This document shows positions 7,932-38,473 of a stretch of DNA of 64,000 bases, one piece after another. The stretch comes from Theocolax elegans. Taxonomy: Eukaryota; Arthropoda; Insecta; Hymenoptera; Cerocephalidae. The stretch is from positions 35,882,066 to 35,946,065 of the forward strand of contig CM047429.1 in assembly GCA_026168455.1 (NCBI GenBank), given 5' to 3'. The notes under the pieces are model-generated. The model was not told the origin of the DNA. It saw nothing but the letters and a program-made list of their open reading frames with translations, and searched no databases. Each line of letters begins with the position of its first letter. Position 1 is the first letter of the stretch. The translations under genes were made by a program, and so were the position numbers.

Positions 7932-8040
7932 CAAAATATATTTTATATACACAAAGATTTATACATATATTATATAAATAAATAATAATAAATAATAATC
8001 GCAATTATTAAATTATAACTACCATATAATATATGTCAGG

Positions 8041-11613: not shown

Positions 11614-12386
11614 TGTTACGTCCTAGGGTAGACGTAACATAGAAAAATTAAATAGACTGAATTTAAATTAAAAATAGAAGTTCCCCGTTTTAGTACGCGT
11701 ATAGCGTCAAGGATGGGTGGCAATTCTCCTCGGTATAGCACAGGTCATAGACCCTTCCGAAATTTACGTGCATGGGTAAGCCCGAGGTGCAACAATGAGT
11801 GAGGGCGAGAAAAGGAAAACAACCAACCTTATCGGGCGGGAGATCTACGGTTGACAGGTGGCTGCAACTGCTCGGCTGTCTTTCTCGCTCTCGTTGATCC
11901 TCGATACAGAGACTCCCTTACAATAGAAATGCGGTATAGACTAATTTGGATTTTAAAGGGAATAGGAAAAAGACTGGTGTTTGAAGGTTTAAAGATACTG
12001 CACAATGACTTTTGATATTCTTGCTTTATTTCGCGTTAAATTTTGGATACAGGATTTTACCTTACTTGAGAAAGGACTAAAGAGCAAGAGCGCACACCCC
12101 TGCGCGACATCCCTATTTATATCAAGGGTTTGGGGTGGAGTTTTGGTTCCTCTTGACCAAACAAATATTGTACATTTACTTAATTAATTTATTCTTTGTC
12201 ATGCGTGACCTAATTAAGTTATTGGCTAGAATTTTTCAAGGCGGTTCCTGTCTTTGACGAGGACATCCTACTTTACGTATTAAATGTGTGCGCACGTGTG
12301 TGCGTATGTGTGTGTGCATATGTGTGTGTATATGTGTGTGTATGTGTACGCGCCTGTGTGTACGTTGCGTCTATCATGACGCGACA
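11614..12386 (-). repeat. Left LTR of unit A (773 bp)
   Basis: Plus-strand ends are TGTTACG and GCGACA. The right end abuts a polypurine tract and the left end abuts GTAC. On the minus strand TATAAATA (12114-12121) fits an LTR core promoter. Unlike the other LTRs it has an extra 11-13 bp after CTAGGGTAG, giving a 9-bp inverted repeat TGTTACGTC/GACGTAACA (11614-11639). Confidence 0.88.
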
Positions 12387-12397
12387 CCTCTCCCCTT
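12387..12397 (-). other. Polypurine tract of unit A
   Basis: Minus-strand AAGGGGAGAGG immediately precedes the LTR start TGTCGCG. This is the expected plus-strand priming site. Identical tracts occur at 27684-27694 and 45827-45837. Confidence 0.82.
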
Positions 12398-12772: not shown

Positions 12773-13435
12773 TTAATACTCTTGTCCAGCTATCCTTTTT
12801 TGTCTTCTGAGGAGGTCGTATACTTCCTCCTTGCATGAGTCACAGACGTGGAGTGATAAGTCTCCGTATTCCCAGATGCAGCAACAATTCAATCCTTGGT
12901 ATCTGGGGATGTCGAATCGGCCAATGAATTCGCATCGCGGGCAATAATGCCGCGTGTTCTTCACCCTCAAACCGCATTCCACGCAACGAGCCGGTCGTTC
13001 GACTTCTTCCGTGCTGCCGTAATCTAAGAGGGATAATCCCTCTAGGTTTAGATCGCTGTCCCAATGGTTTGTTACTCCTGGCTCCAGTGATCCGTCCATT
13101 ACCTTTTCCAGAAAACTACGGTACTTCTGCCTGTGGTACCGTACCGTATTTGGATCCAAGTCATTGCAGATCCTCTCTTGTACATGTTGTGTATGCCACC
13201 ATTGGCTGGCTATTCTCTCATCAGCAGTGTATGCTGGGTAGTGGTGTCCGGCTATTCCTATCCGGGCACGAGTGGTTCGTCGTACTTGACCGTCTCTCAT
13301 TAGGTATACCCATAAAGAAAAATATTTTCTTAGAAACTGCCACAGGACTGTCGTTTTTCTTAAAGCACGTCGTTCCGTCATCCATCCCACTGACGAATCG
13401 AGTTCTATTTCCATATCCCAGTTGTCGTTGCTCAT
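12773..13435 (-). CDS. 220-aa zinc-cluster protein of unknown function
   Basis: Intact ORF from an ATG at 13433-13435. The N-terminal half is acidic then basic, with aromatic motifs (QWWHTQHVQERI, TVRYHRQKYRSFLEKV). The C-terminal third has CxxC pairs CVEC...CPRC and, after a Cys triplet, CDSC, suggesting two zinc sites of treble-clef or ribbon type. I do not recognise the family. It is the last gene before the 3' LTR, where complex retroviruses keep accessory genes, and has a TATA box at a promoter-like distance. Unit B carries a full-length copy with scattered substitutions, so the frame has survived in two diverged units while its neighbours broke. It could be a captured host or viral regulator. 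Confidence 0.8.
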   Translation of the reverse strand: MSNDNWDMEIELDSSVGWMTERRALRKTTVLWQFLRKYFSLWVYLMRDGQVRRTTRARIGIAGHHYPAYTADERIASQWWHTQHVQERICNDLDPNTVRYHRQKYRSFLEKVMDGSLEPGVTNHWDSDLNLEGLSLLDYGSTEEVERPARCVECGLRVKNTRHYCPRCEFIGRFDIPRYQGLNCCCIWEYGDLSLHVCDSCKEEVYDLLRRQKRIAGQEY

Positions 13436-13510
13436 CTTGGTGTGTGAGGGTTGACGTGTGGCCGTGTTGTTGCTACAAGTAAGAATAGATTGTCAAGCGT
13501 GAAACCCCCC

Positions 13511-13518
13511 TATTTATA
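13511..13518 (-). promoter_or_regulatory. Candidate internal TATA box for the 220-aa ORF
   Basis: Minus-strand TATAAATA, in the context CCTATAAATAGGGGGG, lies 75 nt upstream of the ATG. A start about 30 nt downstream would leave a leader of roughly 50 nt. The site and spacing are the same in unit B (30441-30448). The element's LTR promoter uses the same core. Confidence 0.55.
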
Positions 13519-13861
13519 GGCTGGTACTGTTGGATTTTATGTTTTCTCCACCCCCGTGACTTAATTATGATTCAGGGAAAGCCCTGGATTGGATAAAAAG
13601 AAATAGATAAAATCAAGGGTTTTTTTATAATCTACATCCTATTCATATACATATATTTACTTATTGCGCAAGTTCGAAAGTTATTATAATTTATTTATAA
13701 ACAAATATTTATATTTAAATGATAAGCGAGCATACTGTTTACATTATACATTTTATTATAATAAGTAATTGTTAATTATAAGTCATTTTTAAATGCCTTA
13801 AACATTGTTACTTGGTTCAGTTTTCTCGGATAAAACTGGCGTGTTCGGAGGTGGTTCTGGT

Positions 13862-15518
13862 TCATACGTCTTGGGTGGTGTTCACGGAGTTGCATATACG
13901 TGTTCTCGAGGTAAGAAATTCCATTGGGACGTACTCTACTTTGTCTTTTTTTGATTTCCTAATACATTTTTGGAAAATATATCGACATAGTATTAAGCAT
14001 CCGGCAAAAAGCATTAGTATAATAATCATTCCATGTAAGTAAGCATCAGTTATTTGATTTTCAATTTTAACATTAATAGTTTTATCCGGTTTTAAATCGC
14101 TCGGAAGGTTTTTTCCTGCTCCGATCAACTGCAATGGTGGTAAATAGTACGTGTCCTTTTCTCTCACCAGCAGCTCTGAAGCGTAGTAGATGTTATCGTG
14201 AACCTTAAAGTGGCAGCCCGCTGAGAGGGAAATCGTTCCTGTTTGTTGAAAAGTGTATGTCTCCTCGAATCCTGGACAAAATACATTTACGAGTGTAGGC
14301 TTTGCGACTGAGTAAACATAGTGTCTTGGATGAGCAGTTTTAATGATGTATAAGTTCTTGCCTTTCATAAAATTAATTTTACATGAACTAAAAGTTGCAT
14401 AGTCTTGTTCCAGTAATAATTTGCTTTCACACTCTCGTTGGAGATGCACAGGGTTTTCCCTTACGCATATATAATTCCTTTGTAATTTAATGCATCTCGA
14501 CAGCTGTGTTGTACTTAAAAAGGTGTGTTTTTCCCCGTTGGGAAGAGAGGCTTTAAAATCGTCCCTGGGTTGAATGTACGCTGCATTATGGATTAAATCC
14601 CCTTGTTGGAAAACTGGCACTGGAAGCATTTTGTACAAAGTGTGCGTTTCCTTTTCTACCATTGGCATTATTATTTGCATAATTATGTGATCTTTATAAA
14701 TTGTTAATTCTCTTGGAGCGAACTCGGCAATTATTTGTTCAATTTTTACCGGACTCTTGGTTTCGGATACTTTTTCTATCATTTTTAAAATAATTCTTAA
14801 ATTTCTTGTAGCGCCGGAAAACTTTGTTGTTGACAATAAACTTGTTATCGTGTTGGCTATATCCAAGTAACTATCCAAATTTTGTAATGCTAGATTGATT
14901 GTTTCCTCAACTCTTGATTTGTCAATATCTATTACTCCTATTTCTCCTTGTAGTATTTGTAATATTGCTTCCAGTTGCTTCATTTCTACAGACATTTTTT
15001 CTAGAGTTTGCATGATTTCATTATCTATGTACGCCTTTGCCGTACCTCTTCCTAAACATTGCTTCTCGAGAGTGATGTCTCATTTGCGTAATAATTGGTA
15101 CTATATCTAGTGATGAATTTTTTGTAAATGCGTTTTCGTCCCCCCCCTTATCTAAAACTTCGTCCCCTGACGAATATGAAGTCGCTGAAGTGATATAAGC
15201 GTCTCTTATTCTAGAGAGCTCGCGCATTTTTTCTTGTAATAAATAAATTCTGCTTATCGTTACCGCGTCCTTTAGCCTTGTATACGTGTCGGATTGTACA
15301 ATATCTTGTATTATTTTTGTAAAATTTTCTTGGATTCCAAAAACTTTCTGCGTGTCAATTGTAGTTATTATACACCATTCTTGTTTAATAAAGTCTATTT
15401 CTTGCAATCAATTAAAAATGATGCCGGGGTTATTTCGCTCTGTTACAATTGCCTTATTTTGAGTCGTCGCAATCACAACGTGAAACACGATGAAAAATGC
15501 GCACATAATCTTCTCCAT
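13862..15518 (-). pseudogene. env: Gypsy/baculovirus-F-type envelope gene, disrupted (unit A)
   Basis: The ATG at 15518 starts a hydrophobic signal-like segment (MEKIMCAFFIVFHVVIA). An in-frame TGA follows at 15408-15410, then the frame stays open to about 15060, where sequence continuity moves to another frame (13862-15013). The main body has the layout of insect gypsy Env and baculovirus F: a heptad-rich region, then LYKMLPVPVFQQGD, YIQPRDDF, spaced Cys residues (C..YICV, ECESKLL, CPGFEETY), a membrane anchor (MIIILMLFAGCLILC) and a basic tail. It would encode the membrane-fusion glycoprotein. The TGA and the frame change are present in all three units. Unit A alone also lost 31 bp near 13921, which alters the tail. 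Confidence 0.8.
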
Positions 15519-15725
15519 TTTGTCTGTAACATAATAATAAAAAACTTTATTATGTCCAACATATTGTTCCTTTATTTATGTGCGTTTGTATATATATATA
15601 TTTTTTTAACATATTTTTCCTATGCGTTCCAATTTATCGTATTATGTTAATTACACATATTTTTATGTTTCTCTGAGATTTATTTCAATACGCGCTTAAT
15701 ATCATCGGTATATGCATAATTTCTC
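15519..15725. other. Spacer between Env start and Cys-rich ORF
   Basis: A/T-rich with a short (TA)n run near 15590. This is the likely region for an env splice acceptor, but I cannot pick a site. Confidence 0.4.
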
Positions 15726-16214
15726 TCATTCAGCTTTATTTTCTTTTTTCACCTCTTGAATCTTTGGATATGTTGATTCCGCTCTACTGGTTGCTGTATG
15801 TTGGTCGATTCCGTTAGTGCTTCGTTTACATAATACTTTCGTGCTCTCTTCGAATAGAATACTATTTTGTTTATTTACTCGCGCTGGAGTCAAGAAATTC
15901 CATTTAAGTTGTTCTCGAGGTTGTAATTGCGATGTTATACATTCGTGTAGTCCGCCATTTACGCGCGTTAGTACATATCCATTGCATTTAACTTCTTGCT
16001 CGATAAGACAACTTTTGAAAGGAATTGGGAGTCCGCAACAAAAACATTTTAGATCAGTAAAAGTACAAATTAATTCGCGTATCGTTCGTGTAGCACTTAA
16101 TGAAAACCGAATTTTTTCTATGTGTGATAATTTTGTTGTATAACAATAATGACACAGGTATGTATTATGACAAAAATAGCAAAGTCGCTCCCAATTTCTT
16201 ACTAAAACTGACAT
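15726..16214 (-). CDS. 162-aa Cys-rich accessory ORF
   Basis: Intact in unit A from an ATG at 16212-16214. Cys pairs near the N-terminus (LCYFCHN, LCHYC) and about 32 residues on (KCFCCG), plus further Cys (KSCL, VKC, HEC), suggest two zinc sites. The C-terminal half is polar and Glu/Lys-rich. I do not recognise the family. It lies between the Gag-like ORF and env. In units B and C a nonsense change truncates it to 115 residues after PARVQK, with the Cys-rich half retained. Candidate roles (regulator, nucleic-acid-binding protein) are guesses. Confidence 0.7.
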   Translation of the reverse strand: MSVLVRNWERLCYFCHNTYLCHYCYTTKLSHIEKIRFSLSATRTIRELICTFTDLKCFCCGLPIPFKSCLIEQEVKCNGYVLTRVNGGLHECITSQLQPREQLKWNFLTPARVNKQNSILFEESTKVLCKRSTNGIDQHTATSRAESTYPKIQEVKKENKAE

Positions 16215-16283
16215 TTTTTTTTTATTAATATAGTATACTGTTTAAACTTATAGAATATTCCTATACTGTCTAAATATAGGTAT

Positions 16284-16334
<51 letters not shown>

Positions 16335-16695
16335 TAAATTCTTAATTAAAATTTTATATCGATAGGCAAACCACAAACAGTAGCAAGTAAATAAATAATG
16401 AACTATATATATATATATATATATATTACGTTCCTTTATTTTACGTAATATTAATTTTTAGTCCTAAGATTAATTGAGTCTTTTGTCCCTAAAGTACTTA
16501 GACAGATTTGCTAATAATATTTCATTAGTATTTATCGCAAAAGGTTACTATAATCTTGCGTAGGAAAGAACTGGATGCGGCAGAATTGGCCTGTAGCATG
16601 AAAGGTTTCGATTTTCCCATCGATCTACACCATCATCCATTCAATTCTGTATGGATAAAAAAAAATCGTTTATTTATTTTATGTATTTAAATTAA
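16215..16695. other. Spacer with long TA microsatellites; empty foldback site
   Basis: (TA)n runs at about 16283-16332 and 16406-16426. The second is the position where units B and C carry the 2.83-kb palindrome, so unit A represents the empty target. No gene seen. Confidence 0.7.
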
Positions 16696-17091
16696 TTACT
16701 GTAGAATAATCGAACATCGTTTTCTAAACATTCTCAAGTCATCTAAATGATATTGAATGTTGCGCGCATGACGAATTGCATGGTCCAGATTTGTGTAGAT
16801 TTCCGGTTTACAAATGTATCTTTTGACTTCCGGTCGAAGCCCCTTTAAAAATGCCCTAAGTGCTAAATTTTCGCGTTGTAGGCATGAATCGGTTATTTCC
16901 CTGCATTCTTCTTGTGCTATTTCTCCCAATGTTTTATAATTATGTAACATTCTTTCCATTCGTGCGCCGAATTGGAAAGTGCTTTCGTTTCGTTTTTGCG
17001 ATGCCCATGTAATTTGAATTCTCAAATTAATCAAAGCGCTCATAACATTATATCTTTGTACTTCTGCTAATGTATATATTTTTTTTTCCAT
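16696..17091 (-). CDS. Small Gag-like (capsid C-terminal-like) ORF
   Basis: The ATG at 17089-17091 gives about 131 residues (open 10 codons further without ATG). The segment SQKRNESTFQFGARMERML ... ALRAFLKGLRPEVKRYI ... NLDHAIRHARNIQYHL has the pattern of a Ty3/gypsy capsid: Gln-Lys-x-x-Glu-Ser region, 'FLxGLxPE', then a Leu/Ala-spaced helix. It lacks a zinc knuckle and is distinct in sequence from this element's own gag (compare FFIRGLHWVIKARM). It sits downstream of the glycoprotein gene. It could be a captured gag fragment or a truncated-Gag regulator. In units B and C a 1-nt deletion after the CREITDSC segment breaks it. Confidence 0.65.
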   Translation of the reverse strand: MEKKIYTLAEVQRYNVMSALINLRIQITWASQKRNESTFQFGARMERMLHNYKTLGEIAQEECREITDSCLQRENLALRAFLKGLRPEVKRYICKPEIYTNLDHAIRHARNIQYHLDDLRMFRKRCSIILQ

Positions 17092-17177
17092 TTTACAATT
17101 TTTTGATTTTATAAATGACACCTTTTATTTTTTTTTGTTTAAAAAAAAACTGCAGTTGAAATAGCAAAATTTACACG

Positions 17178-18692
17178 TTATCGAATTTGCGTTTTAAGGT
17201 GTTGTCTTAGTGCTTGGATTTCCGCTTGGGTGTAAATTCCGCTTTTTGCAAGTTCGGTTGGCTCTGTGTAATTCCAGTTATTTTTAGTAGTTGGTTTTAA
17301 AATGTCTGGTTTTACTTCCTTAGTTGTTCCTCTTGGTAAAATAGTAAACCAATCTTCCCCTAGTAAGAACATAGGAGGAATCAGAACACTGCAGGCAGCT
17401 TCGGTTCCATATTGTTTTAAAATATGTGTCCTTGGCGTCAAAAAATAATCTTTGCCGTCTTTGGTTACTGGTAACTCTTGGTAACATTTTGTAGTTTCTC
17501 TTCGTTGAACGTCAATTTGTAAGCACTTCATTAAGTGCACAACTTCTCCGGCTACCAAGCCCATGTAACCACTTTTTTTCATAATTTGATATGTAAAAAC
17601 GTCAGGTGCTGTTGCTGCAATGCTTAATGCATTTGATATAACTCTTCTTTCCAATTCGCATTTTTGCAAAATTAAATTGCTATTTAATGTTTTTAATTGT
17701 CCTTTAATATGTTTTTCTACGTAAACGAATTTAGAGTTTACGTATGCAAAAATGTCGAAATTTTCTATTGACGGATTTCTTACGGCTTGGAAGGTTTCTG
17801 TTATTGGTCCTTCTAGAAAAAATAATTTTGGGTGCTCTGTTCTAATTAATTCATACGAACACACCGGAATTTGTCCTAAAGTCGTAAAAGCAAAGGTTAT
17901 CTCGCTCGATTCCATTACATATACCGGATGTTGCTCATTGCCTTGTTCTACAACTTTATTAACATAACCCGCGTATAATTCTGAGTATTTACTGCGTTCG
18001 CATGCCTGTACTGGTAACCTATCCCAAAAGACGTACCCTGCTTCTACGTCAATACAATCATCTTGATTAAACTTACAGCGCGTACCGGATCGTAAAATGA
18101 CCTCGTTAGCATTTAAGTTTACCGGTGCATAGTAATCCCTTAAAGTAATGGTAACATAGCCCGTGACTATAGCATCGTCAAAAATACCATATGGATCCGC
18201 GTACATTCCTGCGTTACTACAATCTCCTGCTTGATCTACCTTTCCAACAAACGTCATTGGGTGGACAATCGATCCGTTCAGTTTTAAGTTACTTATTACT
18301 TCGTCTCGTACTCGGTGTTCGCGGTATACATGCATTCTATTACATTCTTCCCTAGAAATTTCATCAATAAACTGAACCTCCCCTCTGTTTTTGTCTTTTC
18401 TATGCGAAAACGCGCCGCAGTATGTTACCGATCTTTTTATTTCTACTTTATAAAGCTTTACATGAGTGCTTGAAAAATCATTTAATTGCAATAGTCGTAC
18501 ATAAATTTTTGTTGTATTTACTACTGGTTCAGGTATGTCGCATTCTCCTACGTGAATTAACGAAAATGTTGCTAAATTTGAGACGTGCTGCGAACAGTCG
18601 TACCCTATGATTGCGTTAATATAGATTTTCCTTGGTATAATAGTTGTGAGATAAATGATGGCCAATAGTGTTTTACAACTCATCTGCAACAT
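17178..18692 (-). pseudogene. Chuvirus-like glycoprotein gene, C-terminus lost (unit A)
   Basis: The ATG at 18690-18692 (after TTGCAG, a possible splice acceptor) opens a 504-codon ORF with a hydrophobic leader, then GYDCSQHVSNLATFSLIHVG. This N-terminal signature (YDC ... N-T/S ... L-x-x-V/D-G-x-C), with later Cys-rich segments (YCGAFSHRKD, GTRCKFNQDDCIDVEAGY), resembles glycoproteins of arthropod chuviruses (Jingchuvirales), known as endogenous copies in insects. Relative to units B and C about 0.6 kb is deleted, removing the membrane anchor and most of the cytoplasmic tail. The family call is from pattern memory; an alternative is another class of arthropod-virus glycoprotein. Confidence 0.7.
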
Positions 18693-20283
18693 TAAATAAG
18701 TTCATGAAAGCGTTCTTTTTTTATTTATTTATAGAACCGTTGCAAAAATGCTTAGTTTTATCTTTCCGTTTTTTTTTCTTAAATTATCAGAATCTATTGA
18801 GTGATTCTTTATTGATTTCCTTAGCATTTTTGCATTTGTGAAAATACATATCATTGTTAGAGTTTTGCTATATACATGGCTTATTATTTTTTTTATTTAC
18901 ATTCGTCATGCTCTTAAATTTAAATACCAACAAGCTTATTCGGTTTCAATATGCGATTTGCGTAAGCGATTTATGTGCACTATTTTATTTTTATTTCCAT
19001 TTATTTGAATTTTTACATTCCCATTGTCGGAAACGTCTAGAACTAAAAATGGACCCGAGTATTGATCGTCAAATTTCTTAGGTTTTGGCCCCTTTTGCAG
19101 CCATACGTAATCACCGATTTGTAGTGTTAAAACGTTTACCTTACGATCGTAGTATTTCTTGGCTCGAAGTTTTGCCTTTAAAAGGTTTTGTTGGGCTATG
19201 TTTTGTAGACTGTTTAGGCGCTTGACTATAGCATCGTCAAAAATACCATATGGATCCGCGTACATTCCTGCGTTACTACAATCTCCTGCTTGATCTACCT
19301 TTCCAACAAACGTCATTGGGTGGACAATCGATCCGTTCAGTTTTAAGTTACTTATTACTTCGTCTCGTACTCGGTGTTCGCGGTATACATGCATTCTATT
19401 ACATTCTTCCCTAGAAATTTCATCAATAAACTGAACCTCCCCTCTGTTTTTGTCTTTTCTATGCGAAAACGCGCCGCAGTATGTTACCGATCTTTTTATT
19501 TCTACTTTATAAAGCTTTACATGAGTGCTTGAAAAATCATTTAATTGCAATAGTCGTACATAAATTTTTGTTGTATTTACTACTGGTTCAGGTATGTCGC
19601 ATTCTCCTACGTGAATTAACGAAAATGTTGCTAAATTTGAGACGTGCTGCGAACAGTCGTACCCTATGATTGCGTTAATATAGATTTTCCTTGGTATAAT
19701 AGTTGTGAGATAAATGATGGCCAATAGTGTTTTACAACTCATCTGCAACATTAAATAAGTTCATGAAAGCGTTCTTTTTTTATTTATTTATAGAACCGTT
19801 GCAAAAATGCTTAGTTTTATCTTTCCGTTTTTTTTTCTTAAATTATCAGAATCTATTGAGTGATTCTTTATTGATTTCCTTAGCATTTTTGCATTTGTGA
19901 AAATACATATCATTGTTAGAGTTTTGCTATATACATGGCTTATTATTTTTTTTTATTTACATTCGTCATGCTCTTAAATTTAAATACCAACAAGCTTATT
20001 CGGTTTCAATATGCGATTTGTGTAAGCGATTTATGTGCACTATTTTATTTTTATTTCCATTTATTTGAATTTTTACATTCCCATTGTCGGAAACGTCTAG
20101 AACTAAAAATGGACCCGAGTATTGATCGTCAAATTTCTTAGGTTTTGGCCCCTTTTGCAGCCATACGTAATCACCGATTTGTAGTGTTAAAACGTTTACC
20201 TTACGATCGTAGTATTTCTTGGCTCGAAGTTTTGCCTTTAAAAGGTTTTGTTGGGCTATGTTTTGTAGACTGTTTAGGCGCTT
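18165..20283. repeat. Tandem direct duplication of about 1059 bp (pol 3' end + glycoprotein 5' end)
   Basis: 18165-19223 and 19224-20283 are near-identical (a C/T change near 18962/20022 and one extra T near 19949). TGACTA occurs at both outer boundaries and at the junction, the signature of microhomology-mediated duplication. Units B and C lack it. Confidence 0.9.
18936..19751 (-). pseudogene. Chimeric ORF: glycoprotein N-terminus fused to integrase C-terminus
   Basis: The duplication junction at 19223/19224 joins the first 176 codons of the glycoprotein (leader through YGIFDDAIV), in frame, to the last 95 codons of pol (KRLNSLQNIAQQ ... HINRLRKSHIETE). The 271-codon frame is intact. It is a rearrangement by-product carrying a secretion-signal-like leader. 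Flanks 18693-18935 and 19752-19995 are duplicated A/T-rich spacers without genes. Confidence 0.85.
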
Positions 20284-23200
20284 GACTAAATCTTCAAGAT
20301 AACCATCGTATGTAGGCGCCAGGTCTTCTGTTTCGACCGGTGCGTTCGAGGGTGTGCGTGCCAGTCGGCCGAACACGAGTTCAAACGGCGTATGCCATGT
20401 AGACTCACTAATTCCCGTGTTAAAATTAAAGGTAGCCAAATCCAGATAATCGTCCCAATCTGTTCGATTACTATGTACAAAAAATTTCAAGTATTCAATG
20501 AGACTTGAGTGCGATCGTTCAAGTCCACCGTTTGATTGTGGGTGGAACGCCGTGGTTTTAGTTTGTTTAATTCTAAATATTTTTGCTATTCTTTTCATTA
20601 ATTTACTCATGAAATTCGTACCTTGATCCGTAAGGATTATTCGAGGTGCGCCAAATATGCTTATGACTTTTCTTATTAAACCATTCGCTACATCCATGGC
20701 CGAAATTCGCGCCAAAGGTTCAGCTAATGCGAATTTAGTTAATAAGTCTTGGAAGGTTAAAATGTACTCGTTTCCCCGATTGGTTTTGCATAAGGGACCA
20801 ACAATATCCATACTTATTCGGTCCATAGCGTGCGTTCCCGAGTTTGTAATAACCATTGGAGCTCTAGTTTTAACCCTAACCAATTTTTTTAATTGGCAAT
20901 TCAAACATTTTCTTATAAAATCTTGTACCTCTATCTTTAAATTCTCCCAGTTATAATTTTGTTTAATACGGTTATAGGTTTTTGTGACACCTCTATGTCC
21001 TCCTATAGCCGAACAATGAGCTTCTTCTATAATCGGAATTCGATCGTCTAGTGTCGGATATCGTATTAGACCTAAACAAACAATTAATTTTACCGTACTT
21101 TGACTAAAAACTCCTTTTAGTTTTTCTAAAACTAATTCCCACTCTAAATTTTCAATTCTATCGGTTTTCGCTATACTTATTGATTTTATCTGCATTGTAT
21201 CTAAAGTTAAATACAGATTTTCGCATAATAAATTTAGGTTATTATCAATTCCACTTAGCCCGATTAACGATTCTGTTCGTATCGGTAATGCTATATGAAT
21301 TTTTGTATTTACATTTATCAAAACTGGTATTCCAACCTGCATTTCCTTGAATCTTGGTAATTTATTCTGTAGTTTTAATTGCGAAGCCCCATCGTCGCAT
21401 GGTTCTCCTGTTATAGTGACAAAATACATATAATTGTCCTTACGCATAAATAATTTTTCTCTGCATGTAATAATTACTTGTTTATCGTTAATTTGATTAA
21501 ATTGTTCTTCATAGATCGACGTCTCTTCGTTTATTTGATCAGGACTGAATTGCGGATCGTTTTCAAGTAATGATTCATTAACATGATCAAGATCTTCGTG
21601 TAAGCGTAATCGCGCATTTTCCGAGTGAACGAGGGGTTCCGGCTCGAAAGTTTCCACCTCCGTATCGTCGTGCGTTCCTTCTCCACGGTCCGGTGATTGT
21701 TCGTTCGCTCGCCTCTCGTTTTTTCTTCCCCTTTGCGGGCGTAGAGCCTCTATCGCGTCTAAATATCGCTGGCCTACCTGGCGACCCGCCTTCGCTCTCG
21801 TGGTCATACCCCGCGGTGGTTCAACTAGGCTAGACTCGGGCTCATCACCTGCCGCTATTGCCTTGCTTCTCGTCATAACTAGGACCTTGTCTATGGGGTT
21901 TCTAGACAGTGCGTCTGCTACATTTAAACGACCCGGTCTGTATTTAATTTCGAAATCGTACTCCGCGAGCATAAGACGCCATCGCGTAACTCGTGAGTTC
22001 GGGTCCTTATGCGTTTGTAACCATACCAGTGGTTTATGATCTGTTATAAGATAAATTTTTCGTCCAAATAAATACGGTCGGAAATGCTTAATGCAAAATA
22101 TTATTGCTAGTCCTTCTTTGTTAAACGTGTCCCAACGTTTTTCAACATCCGAAAGAACTCGAGAGACGTATGCAACGGGTTGATCTTTCCCTATCTCACC
22201 CTGACTTAAGACTCCAGCAATTGCATATCCCGAAGCGTCGGTCGTTAGATTGAAAGTAATTTCGAAATTTGGAAAAATTAATACCGGTTTTTCGCATAAA
22301 CTAATGCGTAATGTCTCAAATGCCTTTTCTGATTCTTCTGACCATTTAAATTGAATGTCATTTTTTAATAAATCCGTTAAAGGTTTTGCAATTTTTGAAA
22401 ATTGATAAATAAATCTTCTATAGTAGCCCGCTAAACCCAAAAATTGCTTGATATTTTTAGCATTTTGAGGGCGTGGAAATTTTCGTACAGTTTCAATTTT
22501 CCGCGAATCTGGTTTAATTCCTTCTGCACTAATAACATGACCTAAATATGTAACTGTTTTTTAAAAAAATTCACATTTCTCTGGTTGTAATTTTAAAACC
22601 GCTTTTCGCAATCTAAGAAATAAATTCTCTAATCTTTTAATATGCTCTTGTAGAGTCTCCGAATAACATATAATATCATCAATAAAGCAAAGAAGTTCTT
22701 TATTGATAAGTCCAGCGAGTGCAATTGAAAGTGCCCTTGAGAATGTAGCCGGCATTGTTCGTAGTCCAAAGCTTCCTCGATTAAAATGGTACAAATCTCC
22801 GTTTGTAACTAACGCGGTTTTGTGACGGTCTCGTTCGTCAATTTCTATTTGATGATACGAAGCCTTAAGATCAAAAGTTGAGAATTTTTTTGATCCGCCC
22901 AATTGGTCTATTATTTCAGTTATATTCGGTAGCGGAAATTGGTCGTCTAAAGTTTTCGCATTTAATTTGCGATAGTCGATCACCATTCTGTATTGCTTGC
23001 GTCCTTGTATGTCCTCTTTCTTAGGAACTAGAAAACAAGGGCTTGAGTACGATGAGGTAGATGGTTCGATAATGCCGTCTTTTAATAAGTCTTGCACTTG
23101 TCTTGCTATTTCTTGTTTATGTACCGGAGGTAATCGGTATTGTTTTGAAGTTATTGGTACATCATCCGTTGTTGGGATTGTTAGTTTTAAAATATGTGTT

Positions 23201-23931
23201 GCTGTTAATTTTTCACCCGGAAGGTAAAAGATGTCGCTATATTTCTCAATTAATTTTTCTATTTCTTCTCTTTCATCAACAGCCAAATAGTCAAGTCGTA
23301 GTAATGATTTTACCTTTTCCGCTCTCCCTTTTGGTATGACACATGCTAAGCGATAAACTTTATGACTACATTTTAGTTTCTTTCCGCCTTTTCCTTTTAA
23401 ATTAATTCTTAATTTAAGTAAACCCTCCAATGTATCTTTAATAACATTTTTATGAGATTCTCTCCCAAAGGCATGTAGTTTTACATAATTTCCTAATTTA
23501 TTTAGATTTCCTCTTAATTCCTTTGAGTTATTTGTTGAGTTGTCATGATACTTTATTCCCATTAGTAGATTACTTATTAACATTTCCATGTCTTGGTTAT
23601 TGTTCCACAGAATTCCATTATTCATTAAACCTTCCTCTAGAATTTTTTGTAACATGCGTGTCGAAATTAACAACCTTTCTTCATCGAATTCGTTTGCGTC
23701 TACATTTTCATTTTGTGCTAATGCCTTTTTATTTTTTGTATTATTATCGAGACCTTCCATATCTTTTCTCTTTATCTCAAAATTAGAATATTTTTCATTA
23801 CTTATTTCGTTCTCGTTTCTTGGATTTGGGTGCGCGCTTGATTTATTAGGCGCCTCATCACTCTCGAGTTCATTTAAGATTATTTTTTTTATTTGAGGAG
23901 TGCGTTTGCAATCTTTCTTTGTTAATTTCAT
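19996..23931 (-). pseudogene. pol: Pol (RT-RNase H-integrase), one nonsense codon (unit A)
   Basis: The ATG at 23929-23931 overlaps the end of the protease frame by 62 nt, in the +1 frame. An N-terminal charged region precedes RT: PSTSSYSSPCFLVPKK, the FIDDIICYS catalytic box, then FLGLAGYYRRF. RNase H has TTDASGYAIAGVL, TDHKPLVWL and VADALSR. Integrase has an HHCC region (HCSAIGGHRG...CLNCQ), then MDIVGPL, LTDQGTNF and GGLERSHS (D, D, E). The C-terminus is complete here, with a chromodomain-less tail (GDYVWLQKGPK). A single AAA-to-TAA change at 22561-22563 splits it after EKCEFF; the frame then resumes. Sequence style is that of the insect gypsy/17.6 group. Confidence 0.92.
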
Positions 23932-25375
23932 GATTTAAGTATTCTTCATCCTTCTCCCTTATTACTGGGTTCGACTTGGTATTTGTTTCTAATTTCTTAA
24001 TAATTTTAATTTCTTCACTTGTCTCTTCGTTTCCTTGTTCGATTAATTTACATACATTAGGCTTCCATACTGCCTTCGTACGTAAGACTCGATTTAGGCT
24101 TGGAATTTCATTTAGATTTCGATATTGAGTAACCTTTGAAATCGATTTTAGATTTTGAATTTGATTTTGAATTTCATTTGAATTTGAATTTTGATTTAGA
24201 ATATGATTTTGAATTTGATTTGAATTTGAATTTTGATTTAGAATTTGATTTTGAATTTCATTTGAATTTGAATTTTGATTTAGAATTTGATTTTGACTTT
24301 CATTTGAATTTGAATTTTGATTTAGAATTTGATTTTGAATTTCATTTGAATTTGAATTTTGATTTAGAATTTGATATTGAATTTCATTTAAACTTGCATT
24401 TTGATTTAGATTTCGATTTTGAATTGGAATTTGTTTTTGATTTCGTTTGGGATCTTGTATTTCCAATTTATTTTTACATTGAGATCGAATTTGAATATCT
24501 TTCTGATTTTTTAATTGATTTCGACTACCCGGTGGGTCCTGACTTTGAGATTTAATTAGGATTGACTCTTACTTACGCGATGGGCTTATATGTCCTCGAA
24601 TTCGCGTCTCTTCTACAAGATATACTTTCTCATTAATATGATCGACCTCTCGGGTCGACACCTCCCTCCGTTGAAAATTTTCATTAGCATAATTTGTTTT
24701 TCCTGTTTCCCCAAGCGAATTCCTTTTAGGTGGTTCTATTACCTGTGTGATATGTTTTACGACTTCCTCACCCTCTCTTGCATTGACACTCATAGGGTTA
24801 GCGGAAATTCCCTTACGCGTTCCCGTTCTCTCGTTCAATATACTGTTACGTTTTTCTATGACATTAATCGTCGGGTCTTCATACCTTTCGTTTGTTTCGA
24901 TCAATAATATGTTTTCTTCTACAAAAGGGATACAGACGTCTACAACTCTTAACATTCTTTTCGCATAATCAATTTTTGCACCTAATTGACAGAAAAAATC
25001 GCTTCCCAGTAAACCATCTTCGATTATAGCCACGTTGTCATTTATTATATGGAATTCGATGTCAAACTTTGGAAAATTGATGTCAACTTTGCCTAAAGTG
25101 TAAATACTTTCTTCCGTGATTCCTTTTAATTCTAATATTTCATTTTTATTAATATTTTCGTCTTTTGGTATGTTTCGTAATTTTAGTAAATTGGGACCTG
25201 CTCCTGAATCTAAAATAAGAGTTATTTCCTCGTTGCTTCTCGGATTTTTAAGTTTAATAATTGGCGACTTGCAATTTTTACTTAATCGAACATATCTTTT
25301 GATGATGTGGGTTCCTGTTTTTTGTAACTCGGGCGCCTCGTGTACTCGGTCTCTCGTCTCGCGCAGTATCGGCAT
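23870..25375 (-). pseudogene. pro: Protease plus Asn/Gln-rich segment, one nonsense codon (unit A)
   Basis: Frame overlaps the zinc-knuckle frame above it by about 90 nt in -1. Retropepsin motif ILDSGAGPNLL lies near 25180-25215 and GLLGSDFF near 25000. A low-complexity region of repeated IQNQILNQNSNSNE follows (about 24130-24440) and the frame ends at 23870, overlapping the pol ATG. A TAA at 24569 (CAA in unit C, after ISPSRK) interrupts unit A only. In unit C the same frame is whole. Confidence 0.85.
24136..24440 (-). repeat. 42-bp coding minisatellite (Asn/Gln-rich)
   Basis: About six imperfect 42-bp units encode a 14-residue repeat of the form NEIQNQILNQNSNS. Unit C has about two more repeats at 60422-60770. 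The opposite-strand ORF rich in Asp-Phe-Glu is a shadow. Confidence 0.88.
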
Positions 25376-25665
25376 ATCCTTCTTGTATTTGTATAATTTT
25401 GTTTTGGAAAGGTTGCATTTTGGCGACGAACATATTGATTTTCTTGCTGCTTAAATTCATTAGTCCGTTTTTCACCTGGCCATTGTTGCGGTCTGCGTGA
25501 CTCTCGAGACTCCGCCCAGTCATTCGTAGGCCGTCTTCCCCTGGCTTGGGGTTGTCTCATTTTTTCGAAATGCCAGCATTTCGGTGCCAGGTGGCCCTGT
25601 CTCCCGCAAAGTTGGCATTTATCGGTATATTTGGCTCGGCAAAATGGACTCTTTGTATAGGATTT
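25282..25665 (-). CDS. Nucleocapsid-like segment with CCHC zinc knuckle (unit A)
   Basis: The frame opens after a TAA at 25666-25668. It encodes a perfect knuckle CQLCGRQGHLAPKC (25576-25617), an Arg/Gln-rich linker and a second Cys pair CRYC with no usable His, then stops at 25282. It is -1 to the gag frame, and the protease frame is -1 to it. No ATG precedes the knuckle, so expression needs frameshifting from gag or this is an ancestral lesion. The same organisation occurs in unit C. Confidence 0.7.
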   Translation of the reverse strand, partial: KSYTKSPFCRAKYTDKCQLCGRQGHLAPKCWHFEKMRQPQARGRRPTNDWAESRESRRPQQWPGEKRTNEFKQQENQYVRRQNATFPKQNYTNTRRICRYCARRETEYTRRPSYKKQEPTSSKDMFD

Positions 25666-25736
25666 TTATTTTCTGTTATGACTTTAATTGTTTCATTTAA
25701 CTCTTCTACTTCATAGCATGCAAAGTCTCTTTCGAT

Positions 25737-26867
25737 TTATATAGCTTCAGCAGTAGCTTCATCCAATTTGCACACTTGCCCCATTCGTGCTTTTATTACC
25801 CAATGTAAACCGCGAATAAAAAATTTTACTAAATCATTTTCTAAAGATCGATTGAAATTATTAGTTAATCTTTTTTCTCTTCGAGCTGCTTCAGTGATTT
25901 CTTGACCGATGGATCTAACCCTGTTTGAAAAAACTACGACACTTTCCTCCCTTTTCTGTTTTACATTAGCTAATTCACCGTGTAATTGATGATAAGATTT
26001 CGCAGACCCAAAAATACTATCAAAAAAATTTGCAATTTCTTCAATCGATTCAAAACTTTTTTTTGCTGCACTCTTCAATGCTTCTCCATATAATCTCATT
26101 TTAATTAATTTCGCGAGGTCCGGTTCATATTGTTCATGTATTATGTTGCAAGCTTCCCTACATCCGTCAACAAATTGACTCAATGGAATATTTACCCCAT
26201 TATATTTTGGTATTAATTCAAGTGCGTCTTTTATAGAAAGGGGCCTCACGTGTCCTAAGGTTGAGTTTGTTAAATACGAATTTAATCTTGGCAATCTCTC
26301 CGATACTAAATTAATATTATTACAGTTATTTGGTAAAATTGGTGTGCTTGTAGTAAATCTGACATTATTATCTCGTTTAACAATTTCAGGTTTCATTGGT
26401 TGTTCTGATGTTTTTGCATTTTTAATTGTTGTATTTTCTGCCGAAAAATAGGTTGTGTTATCGTCTGTTAGTTCGGGTTTAAAACCTATCCCATTTACTT
26501 CTACTTTTGTTTTTGCTTCTAAGTTTCCGATAATATAATCGATTATTAATTTTGGATTTACTCTTTTTTCTATAAAATCGCCTAAAGCTTCAATTAGATA
26601 CTTATCTTCGCAAAATTTTATTATATCTTTTTTGTCTACGAATTCCTTTAACAAGTCAATTATTATAGGTATATTTTTATCGAGGCCTACCGCTTCATCT
26701 GACAAATGTATCCCGCTATCATGCCTATCTTTAACAAATTTTAACAAACTAGCTAAAGATTTGTCCGGATTTTCAACACAAAAATCTGGATTTATTTTAA
26801 GCGCCTGCTTAAGCAAAATTGAAGCCGCGTCTTTATTTCGAGAATTCTCTTTTTCATTGGTACCCAT
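25737..26867 (-). CDS. gag: Gag matrix-capsid region (unit A)
   Basis: First ATG at 26865-26867 gives about 376 residues; the frame is open upstream through the PBS into the LTR without an ATG. The C-terminal part is capsid-like: LELIPKYNGVNIPLSQF, QKREESVVVFSNRVRSI, FFIRGLHWVIKARM. The stop TAA (25737-25739) falls right after KLDEATAEAI; about 25 further codons in the same frame (IERDFACYEVEELN...) look coding, so the stop may be secondary. It is present in all three units. The leader between LTR and ATG is only 65 nt, unlike Element 1. Confidence 0.85.
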   Translation of the reverse strand: MGTNEKENSRNKDAASILLKQALKINPDFCVENPDKSLASLLKFVKDRHDSGIHLSDEAVGLDKNIPIIIDLLKEFVDKKDIIKFCEDKYLIEALGDFIEKRVNPKLIIDYIIGNLEAKTKVEVNGIGFKPELTDDNTTYFSAENTTIKNAKTSEQPMKPEIVKRDNNVRFTTSTPILPNNCNNINLVSERLPRLNSYLTNSTLGHVRPLSIKDALELIPKYNGVNIPLSQFVDGCREACNIIHEQYEPDLAKLIKMRLYGEALKSAAKKSFESIEEIANFFDSIFGSAKSYHQLHGELANVKQKREESVVVFSNRVRSIGQEITEAARREKRLTNNFNRSLENDLVKFFIRGLHWVIKARMGQVCKLDEATAEAI

Positions 26868-26917
26868 GATCTGTGCTAATAAGGAAGACAATTGCTCTAA
26901 TCCTTCTTTAATTTTTA

Positions 26918-26930
26918 GGACGAGCCCCCA
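26918..26930 (-). other. tRNA-Pro-type primer binding site (unit A)
   Basis: Minus-strand TGGGGGCTCGTCC begins 2 nt after the LTR end, matching the first 13 nt of the classic proline-tRNA PBS of mammalian gammaretroviruses. Insect env-bearing gypsy elements usually use Ser or other tRNAs. The copies at 45057-45069 and 63282-63294 are identical. Confidence 0.8.
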
Positions 26931-26932
26931 CT

Positions 26933-27683
26933 TGTTACTTCCTAGGGTAGAAAAATTAAATGGAGTGAATTTAAATTAAAAATAGAAATTCCCCGTTTTA
27001 GTACGCGTATAGCGTCAAGGATGGGTGGCAATTCTCCTCGGTATAGCACAGGTCATAGACCCTTCCGAAATTTACGTGCATGGGTAAGCCCGAGGTGCAA
27101 CAATGAGTGAAGGCGAGGAAAGGAAAACAACCAACCTTATCGGGCGGGAGATCTACGGTTGAACGGTGGCTGCAACTGCTCGGCTGTCTTTCTCGCTCTC
27201 GTTGATCCTCGATACAGAGACTCCCTTACAATAGAAATGCGGTATAGACTAATTGGGATTTTAAAGGGAATAGGAAAATGACTAGTGTTTGAAGGTTTAA
27301 AGATACTGAACAATGACTTTCGATTTCTTGCTTTATTTCGCGTTAAATTTTGGATACAGGAGTTTACCTTACTTGAGAAAAGACTAAAAAGCAAGAGCGC
27401 ACACCCCTGCGCGACATCCCTATTTATATCAAGGGTTTGGGGTGGAGTTTTGGTTCCTCTTGACCAATCAAATATTGTACATTTACTTAATTAATTTATT
27501 CTTTGTCATGCGTGACCTAATTAAGTTATTTGCTAGAATTTTTCAAGGCGGTTCCTGTCTTTGACGAGGACATCCTACTTTACGTATTAAATGTGTGCGC
27601 ACGTGTGTGCGTATGTGTGTGTGCGTATGTGTGTGTGTATGTGTAAGCGCATGTGTGTACGTTGCGTCTATCATGACGCGACA
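26933..27683 (-). repeat. LTR shared by units A and B (751 bp)
   Basis: It starts TGTTACTTCC and ends GCGACA. Its left neighbour is the PBS of unit A and its right neighbour the polypurine tract of unit B, so one LTR serves as 5' LTR of A and 3' LTR of B. The minus-strand TATA box is at 27421-27428. CA/GT microsatellite at 27594-27650. Confidence 0.9.

Positions 27684-29488: not shown

Positions 29489-29491
<3 letters not shown>
27883..29491. mobile_element. Solo-LTR-like insertion (1609 bp), unit B
   Basis: Inserted in the (TA)n tract that is uninterrupted in unit A. Outer ends are TGTCACG and TTGTCACA, i.e. TG..CA, flanked by short TA-repeat sequence compatible with a 4-bp target duplication. 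The interior is GC-rich, with G and CA runs and no coding ORF I can support. The ends resemble Element 1's LTR (TGTGACG/CGTCACA), so it may be a solo LTR of a related family. No PBS or PPT is visible. Confidence 0.55.
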
Positions 29492-30729: not shown

Positions 30730-32484
30730 TTAAACATTGTTACTTGTTTCAGTTTTCTCGGATAAAACTGGCGTGTTCGGAGGTGGTTCTGGTTCATACG
30801 TCTTGGGTGGTGTTCTTGGAGTTGCATATACGTGTTCTCGAGGTAAGAAATTCCATTGTATTGTCGGATCAACTGGTCGCATTGGGACGTACTCTACTTT
30901 GTCTTTTCTTGATTTCCTAATACATTTTTGGAAAATATATCGACATAGTATTAAGCATCCGGCAAAAAGCATTAGTATAACCATTCCATGTAAGTAAGCA
31001 TCAGTTATTTGATTTTCAATTTTAACATTCATAGTTTTATCCGGTTTTAGATCGCTCGGAAGGTTTTTTCCTGCTCCGATCAACTGCAATGGTGGTAAAT
31101 AGTACGTGTCCTTTTCTCTCACCAGCAGCTCTGAAGCATAGTAGATGTTATCGTAAACCTTTAAGTGGCAGCCCGTTGAGAGGGAAATCGTTCCTGCTTG
31201 TTGAAAAGTGTATGTCTCCTCGAATCCTGGACAAAATACATTTACGAGTGTAGGCTTTGCGACTGAGTAAACATAGTGTCTTGGATGAGCAGTTTTAATG
31301 ATGTATAAGTTCTTGCCTTTCATAAAATTAATTCTACACGAACTAAAAGTTGCATAGTCTTGTTCCAGTAATAATTTGCTTTCACACTCTCGTTGGAGAT
31401 GCACAGGGTTTTCCCTTACGCATATATAATTCCTTTGTAATTTAATGCATCTCGACAGCTGTGTTGTACTTAAAAAGGTGTGTTTTTCCCCGTTGGGAAG
31501 AGAGGCTATAAAATCGTCCCTGGGTTGAATGTACGCTGCATTATGGATTAAATCCCCTTGTTGGAAAACTGGCACTGGGAGCATTTTGTACAAAGTGTGC
31601 GTTTCCTTTTCTACCATTGGCATTATTATTTGCATAATTATGTGATCTTTATAAATTGTTAATTCTCTTGGAGCGAACTCGGCAATTATCGCCGCATTTA
31701 TTTGTTCAATTTTTACCGGACTCTTGGTTTCGGATACTTTTTCTATCATTTTTAAAATAATTCTTAAATTTCTTGTAGCGCCGGAAAACTTTGTTGTTGA
31801 CAATAAACTTGTTATCGTGTTGGCTATATCCAAGTAACTATCCAAATTTTGTAATGCTAGATTGATTGTTTCCTCAACTCTTGATTTGTCAATATCTATT
31901 ACTCCTTTTTCTCCTTGTAGTATTTGTAATATTGCTTCCAGTTGCTTCATTTCTACAGACATTTTTTCTAGAGTTTGCATGATTTCATTATCTATGTACG
32001 CCTTTGCCGTACCTCTTCCTAAACATTGCTTCTCGAGAGTGATGTCTCATTTGCGTAATAATTGGTACTATATCTAGTGATGAATTTTTTGTAAATGCGT
32101 TTTCGTCCCCCCCTTATCTAAAACTTCGTCCCCTGACGAATATGAAGTCGCTGAAGTGATATAAGCGTCTCTTATTCTAGAGAGCTCGCGCATTTTTTCT
32201 TGTAATAAATAAATTCTGCTTATCGTTACCGCGTCCTTTAGCCTTGTATACGTGTCGGATTGTACAATATCTTGTATTATTTTTGTAAAATTTTCTTGGA
32301 TTCCAAAAACTTTCTGCGTGTCAATTGTAGTTATTATACACCATTCTTGTTTAATAAAGTCTATTTCTTGCAATCAATTAAAAATGATGCCGGGGTTATT
32401 TCGCTCTGTTACAATTGCCTTATTTTGAGTCGACGCAATCACAACGTGAAACACGATGAAAAATGCGCACATAATCTTCTCCAT
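30730..32484 (-). pseudogene. env: F-type envelope gene, disrupted (unit B)
   Basis: The best-preserved C-terminal part: 416 codons (30730-31980) including the anchor and a Pro-rich cytoplasmic tail (EPEPPPNTPVLSEK). Upstream the ATG at 32484, the TGA at 32374-32376 and the frame change near 32040 match unit A. Confidence 0.8.
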
Positions 32485-33178: not shown

Positions 33179-33325
33179 TTTTTTTTATTAATATAGTATA
33201 CTGTTTAAACTTATAGAATATTCCTATACTGTCTAAATATAGGTATTATGTATATATATATATATATATCTTTAATTCTTAATCAAAACAGTAGCAAGTA
33301 AATAAATGAAGAACTATATATATAT

Positions 33326-36900: not shown

Positions 36901-38473
36901 TTACACATTATCGAATTTGCGTTTTCTGCGTGGCGGTAGAGAAGATATATCCGGTTCTATAAATATTTGCGGATATAGATTATTTTGAGCTCCGCAACTT
37001 ACTATTTTACCCCCTCCTGACTCATTGACTCTTACCACAGTGGGTTGTGCCGTGTAGGTGCTAGGTTCGGGCGGGGCGAATGGTACGTGCGAGTCCGAAA
37101 AATGTTCCGCTCGAGTGCCCGCTACTTCCGAAGGCGTAGCTTGTTCTTCCCTCTTTTTCCTTGCGTCACGCGTTGGTTTATCCCTTGCGACGTGCAGTAA
37201 TAATTAAGTGACTGAATTCCAAATTGCTCCTATAATATGAAGTGACCACCCATATAAACTATACAAAGCATAACCATGTAAAATGGTATCAACTAAAAAT
37301 TTTTATTAAACGCCCTATCATAAAAATGCCTATAATAGCTGCGCTAAATGATCCGAAAGTACATAATTGCCCCCAATTTTCATCCAAGTGTTATTGGCTA
37401 ATTCTGTCAACGCTTCTTCATCGAATAATCGGGTAATAGACATACCGTTTTTATCTACCTTTTGCCCGGTCATTCCTAATGCAATTGTGTTCAACATGGC
37501 TGGCCTTTCTACGGGAAACATAAGGTGTTGTCTTAGTGCTTGGATCTCCGCTTGGGTGTAAATTCCGCTTTTTGCAAGTTCGGTTGGCTCTGTGTAATTC
37601 CAGTTATTTTTAGTAGTTGGTTTTAAAATGTCTGGTTTTACTCCCTTAGTTGTTCCTCTTGGTAAAATAGTAAACCAATCTTCCCCTAGTAAGAACATAG
37701 GAGGAATCAGAACACTGCAGGCAGCTTCGGTCCCATATTGTTTTAAATATGTGTCCTTGGCGTCAAAAAATAATCTTTGCCGTCTTTGGTTACTGGTAAC
37801 TCTTGGTAACATTTTGTAGTTTCTCTTCGTTGAACGTCAATTTGTACGCACTTCATTAAGTGCACAACTTCTCCGGCTACCAAGCCCATGTAACCACTTT
37901 TTTTCATGATTTGATATGCAAAAACGTCAGGTGCTGTTGCTGCAATGCTTAATGCATTTGATATAACTCTTCTTTCCAATTCGCATTTTTGCAAAATTAA
38001 TTGCGATATAATGTTTTTTAATTGTCCTTTAATATGTTTTTCTACGTAAACGAATTTAGAGTTTACGTATGCAAAATGACGAGATTTTCTATTGACGGAT
38101 TTCTTACGGCTTGGAAGGTTTCTGTTATTGGTCCTTCTAGAAAAAATAATTTTGGGTGCTCTGTTCTAATTAATTCATACGAACACACCGGAATTCGTCC
38201 TAAAGTCGTAAAAGCAAAGGTTATCTCGCTCGATTCCATTACATATACCGGATGTTGCTCATTGCCTTGTTCTACAACTTTATTAACATAACCCGCGTAT
38301 AATTCTGAGTATTTACTGCGTTCGCATGCCTGTACTGGTAACCTATCCCAAAGGCGTACTCTGCTTCTACGTCAATACAATCATCTTGATTAAACTTACA
38401 GCGCGTACCGGATCGTAAAATAACCTCGTTCGCATTTAAGTTTACCGGTGCATAGCAATCCCTTAAAGTAATG
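36901..38473 (-). pseudogene. Chuvirus-like glycoprotein, N-terminus deleted (unit B)
   Basis: Starts abruptly at the pol junction near 38473, so the leader and about the first 185 codons are missing. A TAA at 37204-37206 separates the anchor region from an in-frame cytoplasmic tail that runs to 36901. Several indels (near 37740, 38070, 38350) are absent from unit C. Confidence 0.7.

Follow-up and report, generated by a model that had tools for sequence, protein, structure and literature searches.

A Gypsy-type retroelement family of Theocolax elegans carrying both a chuvirus-like glycoprotein and an F-type envelope gene

Results

Two envelope-type genes at one locus

The window analysed here, a stretch of 64,000 nucleotides from the hymenopteran Theocolax elegans (GenBank assembly GCA_026168455.1, contig CM047429.1, positions 35,882,066 to 35,946,065), holds on its (-) strand, from about 11.6 kb to its right end, three units of one Gypsy-type long terminal repeat (LTR) element that have LTRs in common, with 12773-26867 (-) forming the internal part of unit 1. 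In each of the three units, a gene for a chuvirus-like glycoprotein (gp) follows the integrase, and a gene for an F-type envelope protein (F-env) lies further 3'. Three extra open reading frames (ORFs), unmentioned in the first-pass annotation of this DNA, lie between or after the envelope genes: a gag-like ORF at 16696-17121, a frame that we call ORFx and a zinc-ribbon-like (Zn) ORF. The features of this region, with the evidence for each in brackets, are:

17196..18692, (-): chuvirus-like gp of unit 1, covering residues 1-499 of 705 and lacking the anchor part at the C terminus (PF24664)
19224..19751, (-): second copy of gp residues 1-176, within a 1.06 kb internal duplication of unit 1 (repeats)
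36904..38475, (-): chuvirus-like gp of unit 2, residues 181-705, split into overlapping pieces that contain stops (sequence comparison)
55044..56615, (-): chuvirus-like gp of unit 3, residues 182-705, one stop (PF24664 on 55344-56381)
16699..17091, (-): gag-like ORF of 131 amino acids (aa), resembling a capsid C-terminal domain by eye (local alignment)
15726..16214, (-): ORFx, a Cys-rich frame of 162 aa without family match (ORF and family searches)
13801..15518, (-): F-type env of unit 1, three pieces, two stops (PF12259)
30733..32484, (-): F-type env of unit 2, four in-frame stops (sequence comparison)
48867..50619, (-): F-type env of unit 3, four stops, three pieces (sequence comparison)
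12773..13435, (-): Zn ORF of 220 aa (PF17032, E 0.0013, below its cut-off)

The ORF at 17178-18692 in unit 1 matches PF24664 (Monjiviricetes_fusion) with E 3e-163, as does that at 55344-56381 in unit 3 (E 6.9e-132); in units 2 and 3 the first ~180 residues of gp are missing and stops are present. The 705-aa gp frame aligns with positions 2-634 of the 653 in the profile (E 9.3e-217) and has a hydrophobic segment at residues 550-576. On the strength of this near full-length family match, we assign gp to the chuvirus-type (Monjiviricetes) fusion glycoproteins, with a predicted anchor. Very many PF24664 genes with long open frames, belonging to several families, occur in the genome (best 68 of 1603 candidates scored), and they represent a large radiation of retroelements with chuvirus-type glycoproteins.

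F-env matches PF12259 (Baculo_F) above the curated cut-off in all three units (13862-15013, E 2.1e-9; 30730-31980, E 1.5e-10; 49141-50115, E 8.9e-11), and the gene of unit 1 extends further 5' (to 15518) than the ORF named in the first-pass annotation. A 585-aa F-env frame aligns with profile positions 211-469 of 609 (E 2.6e-11; 43.3 bits against a cut-off of 24.1). Neither the gp matches nor the F-env matches are due to chance. In one copy fetched from elsewhere in the genome, the protein has a hydrophobic, signal-like segment at residues 1-19, an anchor at 501-519 and a 66-aa tail, without an RxK/RR motif. The profile match together with the N-terminal signal-like segment and C-terminal anchor places the predicted protein in the baculovirus F / insect Env-F family. 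These results agree with what the first-pass annotation had claimed for each unit, namely a chuvirus-like glycoprotein 3' of pol and, further 3', a gypsy/baculovirus-F-type Env with its own signal-like start and anchor.

We next consider the fusion motifs of F-env, using twelve dispersed copies in which its frame is open. The RxxR motifs that they contain are confined to residue 238 or 239 and, in part of the copies, to 524 or 525; none of the 12 has RxxR around residues 140-176, where by our judgement cleavage would be expected. The fusion-peptide consensus GxxxxxGxxxKxxxGxxDxxD (PMC6085415) is matched at no more than two of its six fixed positions anywhere in any of the 12, and a hydropathy scan with 19-residue windows, tuned to anchors, found no third hydrophobic segment. 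The F-type protein is the second envelope of the element, with neither a furin site nor a recognisable fusion peptide found; of the features that mark errantiviruses and the insect endogenous retrovirus (ERV) clade, it has the F-type homology and lacks the combination of a furin site and a fusion peptide in an env-F that is the third gene. In 20/20 copies the F-env start is preceded, at a distance of 5 nt, by an acceptor-like stretch with TTACAG at its end.

Of the three small ORFs, the gag-like one scored 50 when aligned locally with the gag of this element, a value reached by 1 of 500 shuffles; BLASTP against the same gag was not significant, local alignment against two other targets gave nothing, and no Pfam match was obtained at E<=1, so that the label gag-like is a weak one. 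The Zn ORF has 156 matches in the genome (best 150 of 237 candidates scored), a GC content of 0.47 against 0.35-0.39 in the other four frames, and a TATA-like box 83 nt upstream in all 19 copies in which its start was found (oriented positions 7936-8019 in copy L036), a conservation that carries little weight because the copies are one family. It may possibly have its own promoter or be a captured gene. The predicted structures of ORFx and the Zn ORF were unusable (mean pLDDT 33.5 each), and searches of the PDB with the three small ORFs, and of PHROGs, returned nothing convincing. Outside the genome, no homologue at E<=0.001 was obtained for the Zn ORF among 107 candidates or for the F-env protein among 6498, and viral contigs, scanned three times with the queries gp, F-env and pol, yielded no confirmed relative; these misses say little, because the collections seem poor in insects.

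Dispersed copies and recent insertion

The genome searched comprises 658 Mb in 1277 contigs. A DNA search with F-env (best 40 of 193 candidates scored) gave 39 places outside the window, and we retrieved 10 kb around 20 of them, taken from the best 22 with two skipped. Substantial parts of both envelope genes are present in 18 of the 20 copies, in a common order and at similar spacing apart from insertions; where the parts are present, the order is integrase-gp-gag-like-ORFx-F-env-Zn-LTR, some copies having insertions or internal duplications. One of the remaining two has only 26 gp residues in its stretch, and the other has a large insertion and no gp within its 10 kb; a gp-anchored search (best 40 of 213 candidates scored, one of them in the window) places the gp of the latter copy 6.5 kb upstream of its F-env. 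In 36 of these 40 gp-anchored copies an F-env or Zn marker lies downstream on the same strand within 20 kb (within 7.1 kb in 32), with the marker lists being incomplete at 40 F-env and 65 Zn places among the matches listed; four have no listed downstream marker. Two gp genes on contig C1 share one counted marker, standing in a row before one F-env (C1:76592762-76610883), and in copy L021 two Zn ORFs flank one partial LTR; both show signs of being further tandem copies.

Among the 20 copies, gp is open over at least 677 aa in six and F-env over at least 583 aa in 12, and both are open together in four; the full lengths are 705 and 585-586 aa, respectively. The first-pass annotation had described both genes as broken in every unit and had proposed looking for genomic copies with both open: the description holds for all three units of the window, and near-full frames of both genes do exist elsewhere.

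We retrieved 5' ends for six copies, covering the whole 5' LTR in five. All five are flanked by 4-bp target-site duplications (CTAC, TTAT, CTAC, TTGG and CCAT) in differing flanks, they measure 15,747 to 15,930 bp from LTR to LTR, and their LTR pairs differ by 0, 1, 1, 2 and 2 mismatches over 762-773 bases, one pair with a gap column in addition. These copies were inserted recently and independently of one another, and the family was active until recently. Since the target-site duplications and LTR pairs span both genes, the integrating unit includes both envelopes. A single polypurine tract (PPT) and LTR follow the two genes, and this, together with the dispersed copies, their order and their target-site duplications, bears out the proposal that one element carries both. 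We also looked for signs that one of the genes belongs to a separate nested element and found none, given the markers downstream of gp in 36/40 gp-anchored copies and a search of the gp-to-LTR block of L036. Neither the element's own LTR nor an internal repeat turned up in this block, nor did any of four patterns resembling a primer binding site (PBS), in a search that would miss remnants of a foreign element's LTR; the block does contain two purine runs, each followed by TG.

Selection on variants shared between copies

Variants found in a single one of the 20 copies should mostly reflect decay after insertion, and those shared by at least two copies should have arisen while the family replicated. 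We compared the ratio of nonsynonymous to synonymous polymorphism (pN/pS) between these classes, excluding one badly decayed copy and, for each gene, copies covering 90% or less of it; the p values serve as guides only, the copies being related and the tests six in number. For F-env (18 copies), pN/pS is 0.11 among shared and 0.75 among singleton variants (Fisher p 2.7e-4), from synonymous to nonsynonymous counts of 15:6 and 19:53, respectively. The corresponding values are 0.09 and 0.59 for ORFx (19 copies; p 0.006; 12 synonymous to 4 nonsynonymous among shared variants), 0.12 and 0.45 for Zn (19 copies; p 0.04), and 0.09 and 1.02 for the integrase part (11 copies; p 1.5e-4). We take the excess of synonymous changes among shared variants to mean that F-env and ORFx and, less firmly, Zn were under constraint. 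Judged by its variants, F-env was constrained while the family replicated, which suggests that it served some use during the spread of the element.

Which envelope came first

Eight stretches from three related families have integrases 51-53% identical and gp 42-49% identical to those of the dual-envelope family (over pieces of 240 residues or more; a shorter stretch of integrase is 52% identical), and gp follows the integrase directly in all four families. Searching the DNA behind gp against the genome showed that in one of them, L001, an LTR starts ~52 nt past the gp stop, which leaves no room for F-env, and that a paired LTR lies ~11.4-11.5 kb upstream in five copies; in another, L006, gp is followed by a purine tract and by a TGT resembling the start of an LTR. 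Because nothing but this short gap separates gp from the LTR in L001, F-env looks added, along with the three small ORFs. Integrase and gp seem to travel together, with F-env as the variable part, and by this comparison gp is probably the resident envelope of a wider lineage, to which F-env and its neighbours were added in the dual-envelope family. The first-pass annotation had proposed the opposite sequence of events, a Gypsy element with F-env that later acquired a chuvirus glycoprotein, and the L001 family does not bear this out. A search for other dual-envelope families found no F-env hit (best 72 of 480 candidates) within 15 kb of a gp hit (best 68 of 1603); the same proximity test with the family's own 40 F-env hits gave two pairs.

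Boundaries, pol and the history of the array

The remaining parts of the three units are:

11614..12386, (-): LTR1, 3' LTR of unit 1 (repeat comparison, LTR ends)
12387..12397, (-): PPT AAGGGGAGAGG (identical in 6/6 dispersed copies inspected)
19996..22440, (-): RNase H and integrase (PF17917, PF17921, PF00665)
22561..23931, (-): reverse transcriptase (RT) (PF00078)
24569..25375, (-): protease (RVP) (PF00077)
25737..26891, (-): gag, open reading frame, listed with a TTG start (ORF list)
26918..26930, (-): PBS TGGGGGCTCGTCC, 2 nt past the LTR end (identical in 6/6 dispersed 5' ends)
26933..27683, (-): LTR2, 5' LTR of unit 1 and 3' LTR of unit 2 (ends TGTCGCG...GTAACA; repeats)
45072..45826, (-): LTR3, common to units 2 and 3 (repeats, LTR ends)
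56606..60217, (-): pol (RT-RNaseH-integrase), long frame of unit 3 (Pfam)
63297..64000, (-): LTR4, 5' LTR of unit 3, truncated where the window ends (repeats)

The LTRs of the window end in TGTCGCG...GTAACA, with PBS and PPT at the proper ends; the PBS TGGGGGCTCGTCC is presumably tRNA-Pro-like. The gag copy of unit 3 has a weak match to PF03732 (E 0.029, below cut-off). Hallmarks of the Metaviridae (Gypsy) are present, including TGT..ACA LTRs, PBS, PPT, the 4-bp target-site duplications in 5/5 copies (4-6 bp expected) and the order protease-RT-RNaseH-integrase, and both this order and the best Pfam domains of pol are as in Gypsy elements when compared for BEL/Pao. By domain order and the usual layout of the superfamilies, we provisionally classify the element as Gypsy and not as a member of another superfamily.

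LTR2 and LTR3 are free of mismatches across 750 aligned bases, with 4 gap columns, and LTR1 differs from each of them at 21/749 positions (23 and 27 gap columns, respectively). Two inserts, one GC-rich and 1.6 kb long, the other an inverted repeat of 2.9 kb, are present in units 2 and 3 and absent from unit 1. Because units 2 and 3 alone share both inserts and LTR2 and LTR3 have no mismatch, these units are probably the product of a local duplication later than the two insertions, which may have proceeded by unequal recombination between the common LTRs. The array in the window is a dead, probably locally multiplied copy of the family.

The 2.9 kb insert (33316-36169 in unit 2, 51445-54298 in unit 3) is foldback-like and sits within AT repeats; its two arms, of 1.29 kb each, are 99% complementary and enclose a centre of 278 nt. 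The GC-rich insert (27886-29491 in unit 2, the same in unit 3) has TGT...ACA ends inside an AT repeat and is possibly a solo LTR from a different element. A 42-bp minisatellite occupies the protease-to-RT part of pol at 24106-24425, 42248-42558 and 60392-60789 (7.6, 7.5 and 9.6 copies), encoding an Asn-rich repeat in unit 1. At 1-6302 (-) lies a separate Gypsy-type element in which both gag (930 aa, with CCHC knuckles) and pol (1092 aa, running past the window) are long and open.

Discussion

With moderate confidence, we interpret these data as a Gypsy-type ERV family in which gp is the resident envelope and the fusogen, and F-env an added, F-like accessory envelope. The family, of ~15.8 kb, is organised as LTR-PBS-gag-pol-chuvirus-like gp-gag-like ORF-ORFx-F-type env-zinc-ribbon-like ORF-PPT-LTR. 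Genomic RNA made from the LTR would give Gag-Pol, and spliced messages would give each downstream protein, which the acceptor-like site before F-env in 20/20 copies would suit. The chuvirus-like gp would perform membrane fusion, and the F-like protein, if carried in the particle, could act as an accessory envelope that takes part in attachment, in the choice of tissue or in interference. GP64 is a class III fusogen, and we assign the two roles in this way because of the parallel with the F homologue that accompanies GP64 in group I baculoviruses. A bolder version, which we put forward tentatively, would be a complex insect-type retrovirus that combined in one particle a class III chuvirus-type fusogen with a fusion-silenced class I F-type partner. 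It would also have used three small genes, gag-like, Cys-rich and zinc-ribbon-like, the zinc-ribbon-like one perhaps as a regulator expressed from a promoter of its own; all of these would have been acquired after pol and still used until very recently.

Several points weigh against the favoured interpretation. The evidence for constraint is thinner where it concerns gp itself, for which constraint like that on F-env is partly shown (pN/pS 0.18 among shared and 0.66 among singleton variants in 16 copies; p 0.07, with only 10 shared variants), and the gag-like ORF has values of 0.38 and 0.85 (19 copies; p 0.41). The suggested loss of fusion by F-env is a matter of absent motifs only: a cleavage site need not be furin-like, and 19-residue hydropathy windows would overlook a weakly hydrophobic fusion peptide. 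The polarity, for its part, rests on one sister family with paired LTRs (L001), the second sister family being known by a purine tract and TGT only and the third by a 5-kb stretch only. No donor was found for F-env.

Alternatively, both proteins could be full fusogens for different cells or stages (for example, soma-to-germline transfer and passage between hosts), making this a retrovirus with envelopes of two tropisms. The four copies with both near-full frames open, the constraint on F-env and its retained signal-like start and anchor would suit such a virus, and a missing fusion peptide is not rare, since six of seven Bombyx ERV envelopes lack one of the consensus type (PMC6085415). We nevertheless regard this as unlikely: none of the 12 open F-env copies has a furin-like site at the expected place or more than two of the six fusion-peptide positions, and a furin site and fusion peptide are reported among the best conserved motifs of Drosophila env-F (PMC12992720). 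That a Gypsy element kept a resident F-env and gained the chuvirus glycoprotein later would fit the F-type env of the insect ERV clade of Drosophila (PMC12992720) and the many F-env copies in the genome (best 72 of 480 candidates scored). We hold this order of events to be improbable: gp adjoins the integrase in this family and in the three related ones, whose integrases are 51-53% identical to its own, and in L001 the LTR comes next after gp, leaving out F-env.

It is also conceivable that the F-env part is a trapped fragment of another element, carried unused. The gag-like ORF between the envelope genes looks as if a second element had been joined there, non-significant as its BLASTP comparison is, the Zn ORF differs in base composition, and the two purine runs before TG lie in the same block. 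The synonymous excess among shared variants of F-env, ORFx and Zn speaks against an unused passenger, as does a block without a match to the element's LTR, an internal repeat or any of the four PBS-like patterns tried, and we consider this explanation very improbable; an origin of the block by past fusion of two elements is possible. An artefact of the tandem array or of assembly, which a window made of a three-unit array with nested insertions might have suggested, is hardly credible and is refuted by the dispersed copies, which lie on several contigs, differ in their flanks and have target-site duplications of 4 bp.

Retroviruses and retrovirus-like elements normally have one env. A recently moving family with two envelopes of different fusogen classes would represent envelope turnover caught part-way, the old envelope kept and a second added, and makes it testable whether a second envelope replaces, helps or guards the first. 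It also hints that Gypsy elements of arthropods are able to evolve into complex retroviruses equipped with more than one accessory gene. In a literature search largely at the level of titles and abstracts, we found no published LTR element with two different env genes; the family belongs with the known env-bearing Gypsy elements, and its particular combination did not turn up in that search.

Among known systems, the Anakin elements of mosquitoes are BEL/Pao elements with a chuvirus glycoprotein as env (PMC7642597, in part), which agrees with the statement of the first-pass annotation that such glycoproteins are known in insect BEL/Pao elements. Like the dual-envelope family, Anakin is an LTR element that took a chuvirus-type glycoprotein as its env; it differs in being BEL/Pao, the pol domains of our family being as in Gypsy elements, and the available portion of the source mentions no second, F-type env. 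A 2023 survey noted Gypsy fragments near such glycoproteins in Hymenoptera and no clear Gypsy capture (PMC10084718), a 2026 paper describes gypsy elements with type III fusion glycoproteins (PMC13172572), and the Env of Lokiretrovirus resembles glycoproteins of Mononegavirales (PMC9040795). Gypsy elements with a class III glycoprotein (PMC13172572, and the sister families in this genome) share with our family the integrase-gp order and a related integrase and gp, whereas in L001, the one sister family in which LTR pairs were checked, no gene follows gp before the LTR and F-env is absent. Insect ERVs and errantiviruses with env-F (PMC12992720) likewise have a pol of Gypsy type, and their F-type Env resembles ours in its signal-like start, its anchor and its tail; in contrast to theirs, the F-env described here stands second, far downstream, and neither a furin site nor a recognisable fusion peptide was found in it. 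Group I baculoviruses differ as large DNA viruses, and the parallel that we draw with them is functional only, with no common descent of the arrangement claimed. They too have a class III fusogen, GP64, beside an F homologue, for example Ac23, which is reported to be a pathogenicity factor. The F homologue is a retained remnant in which a typical fusion peptide is missing (PMC6085415).

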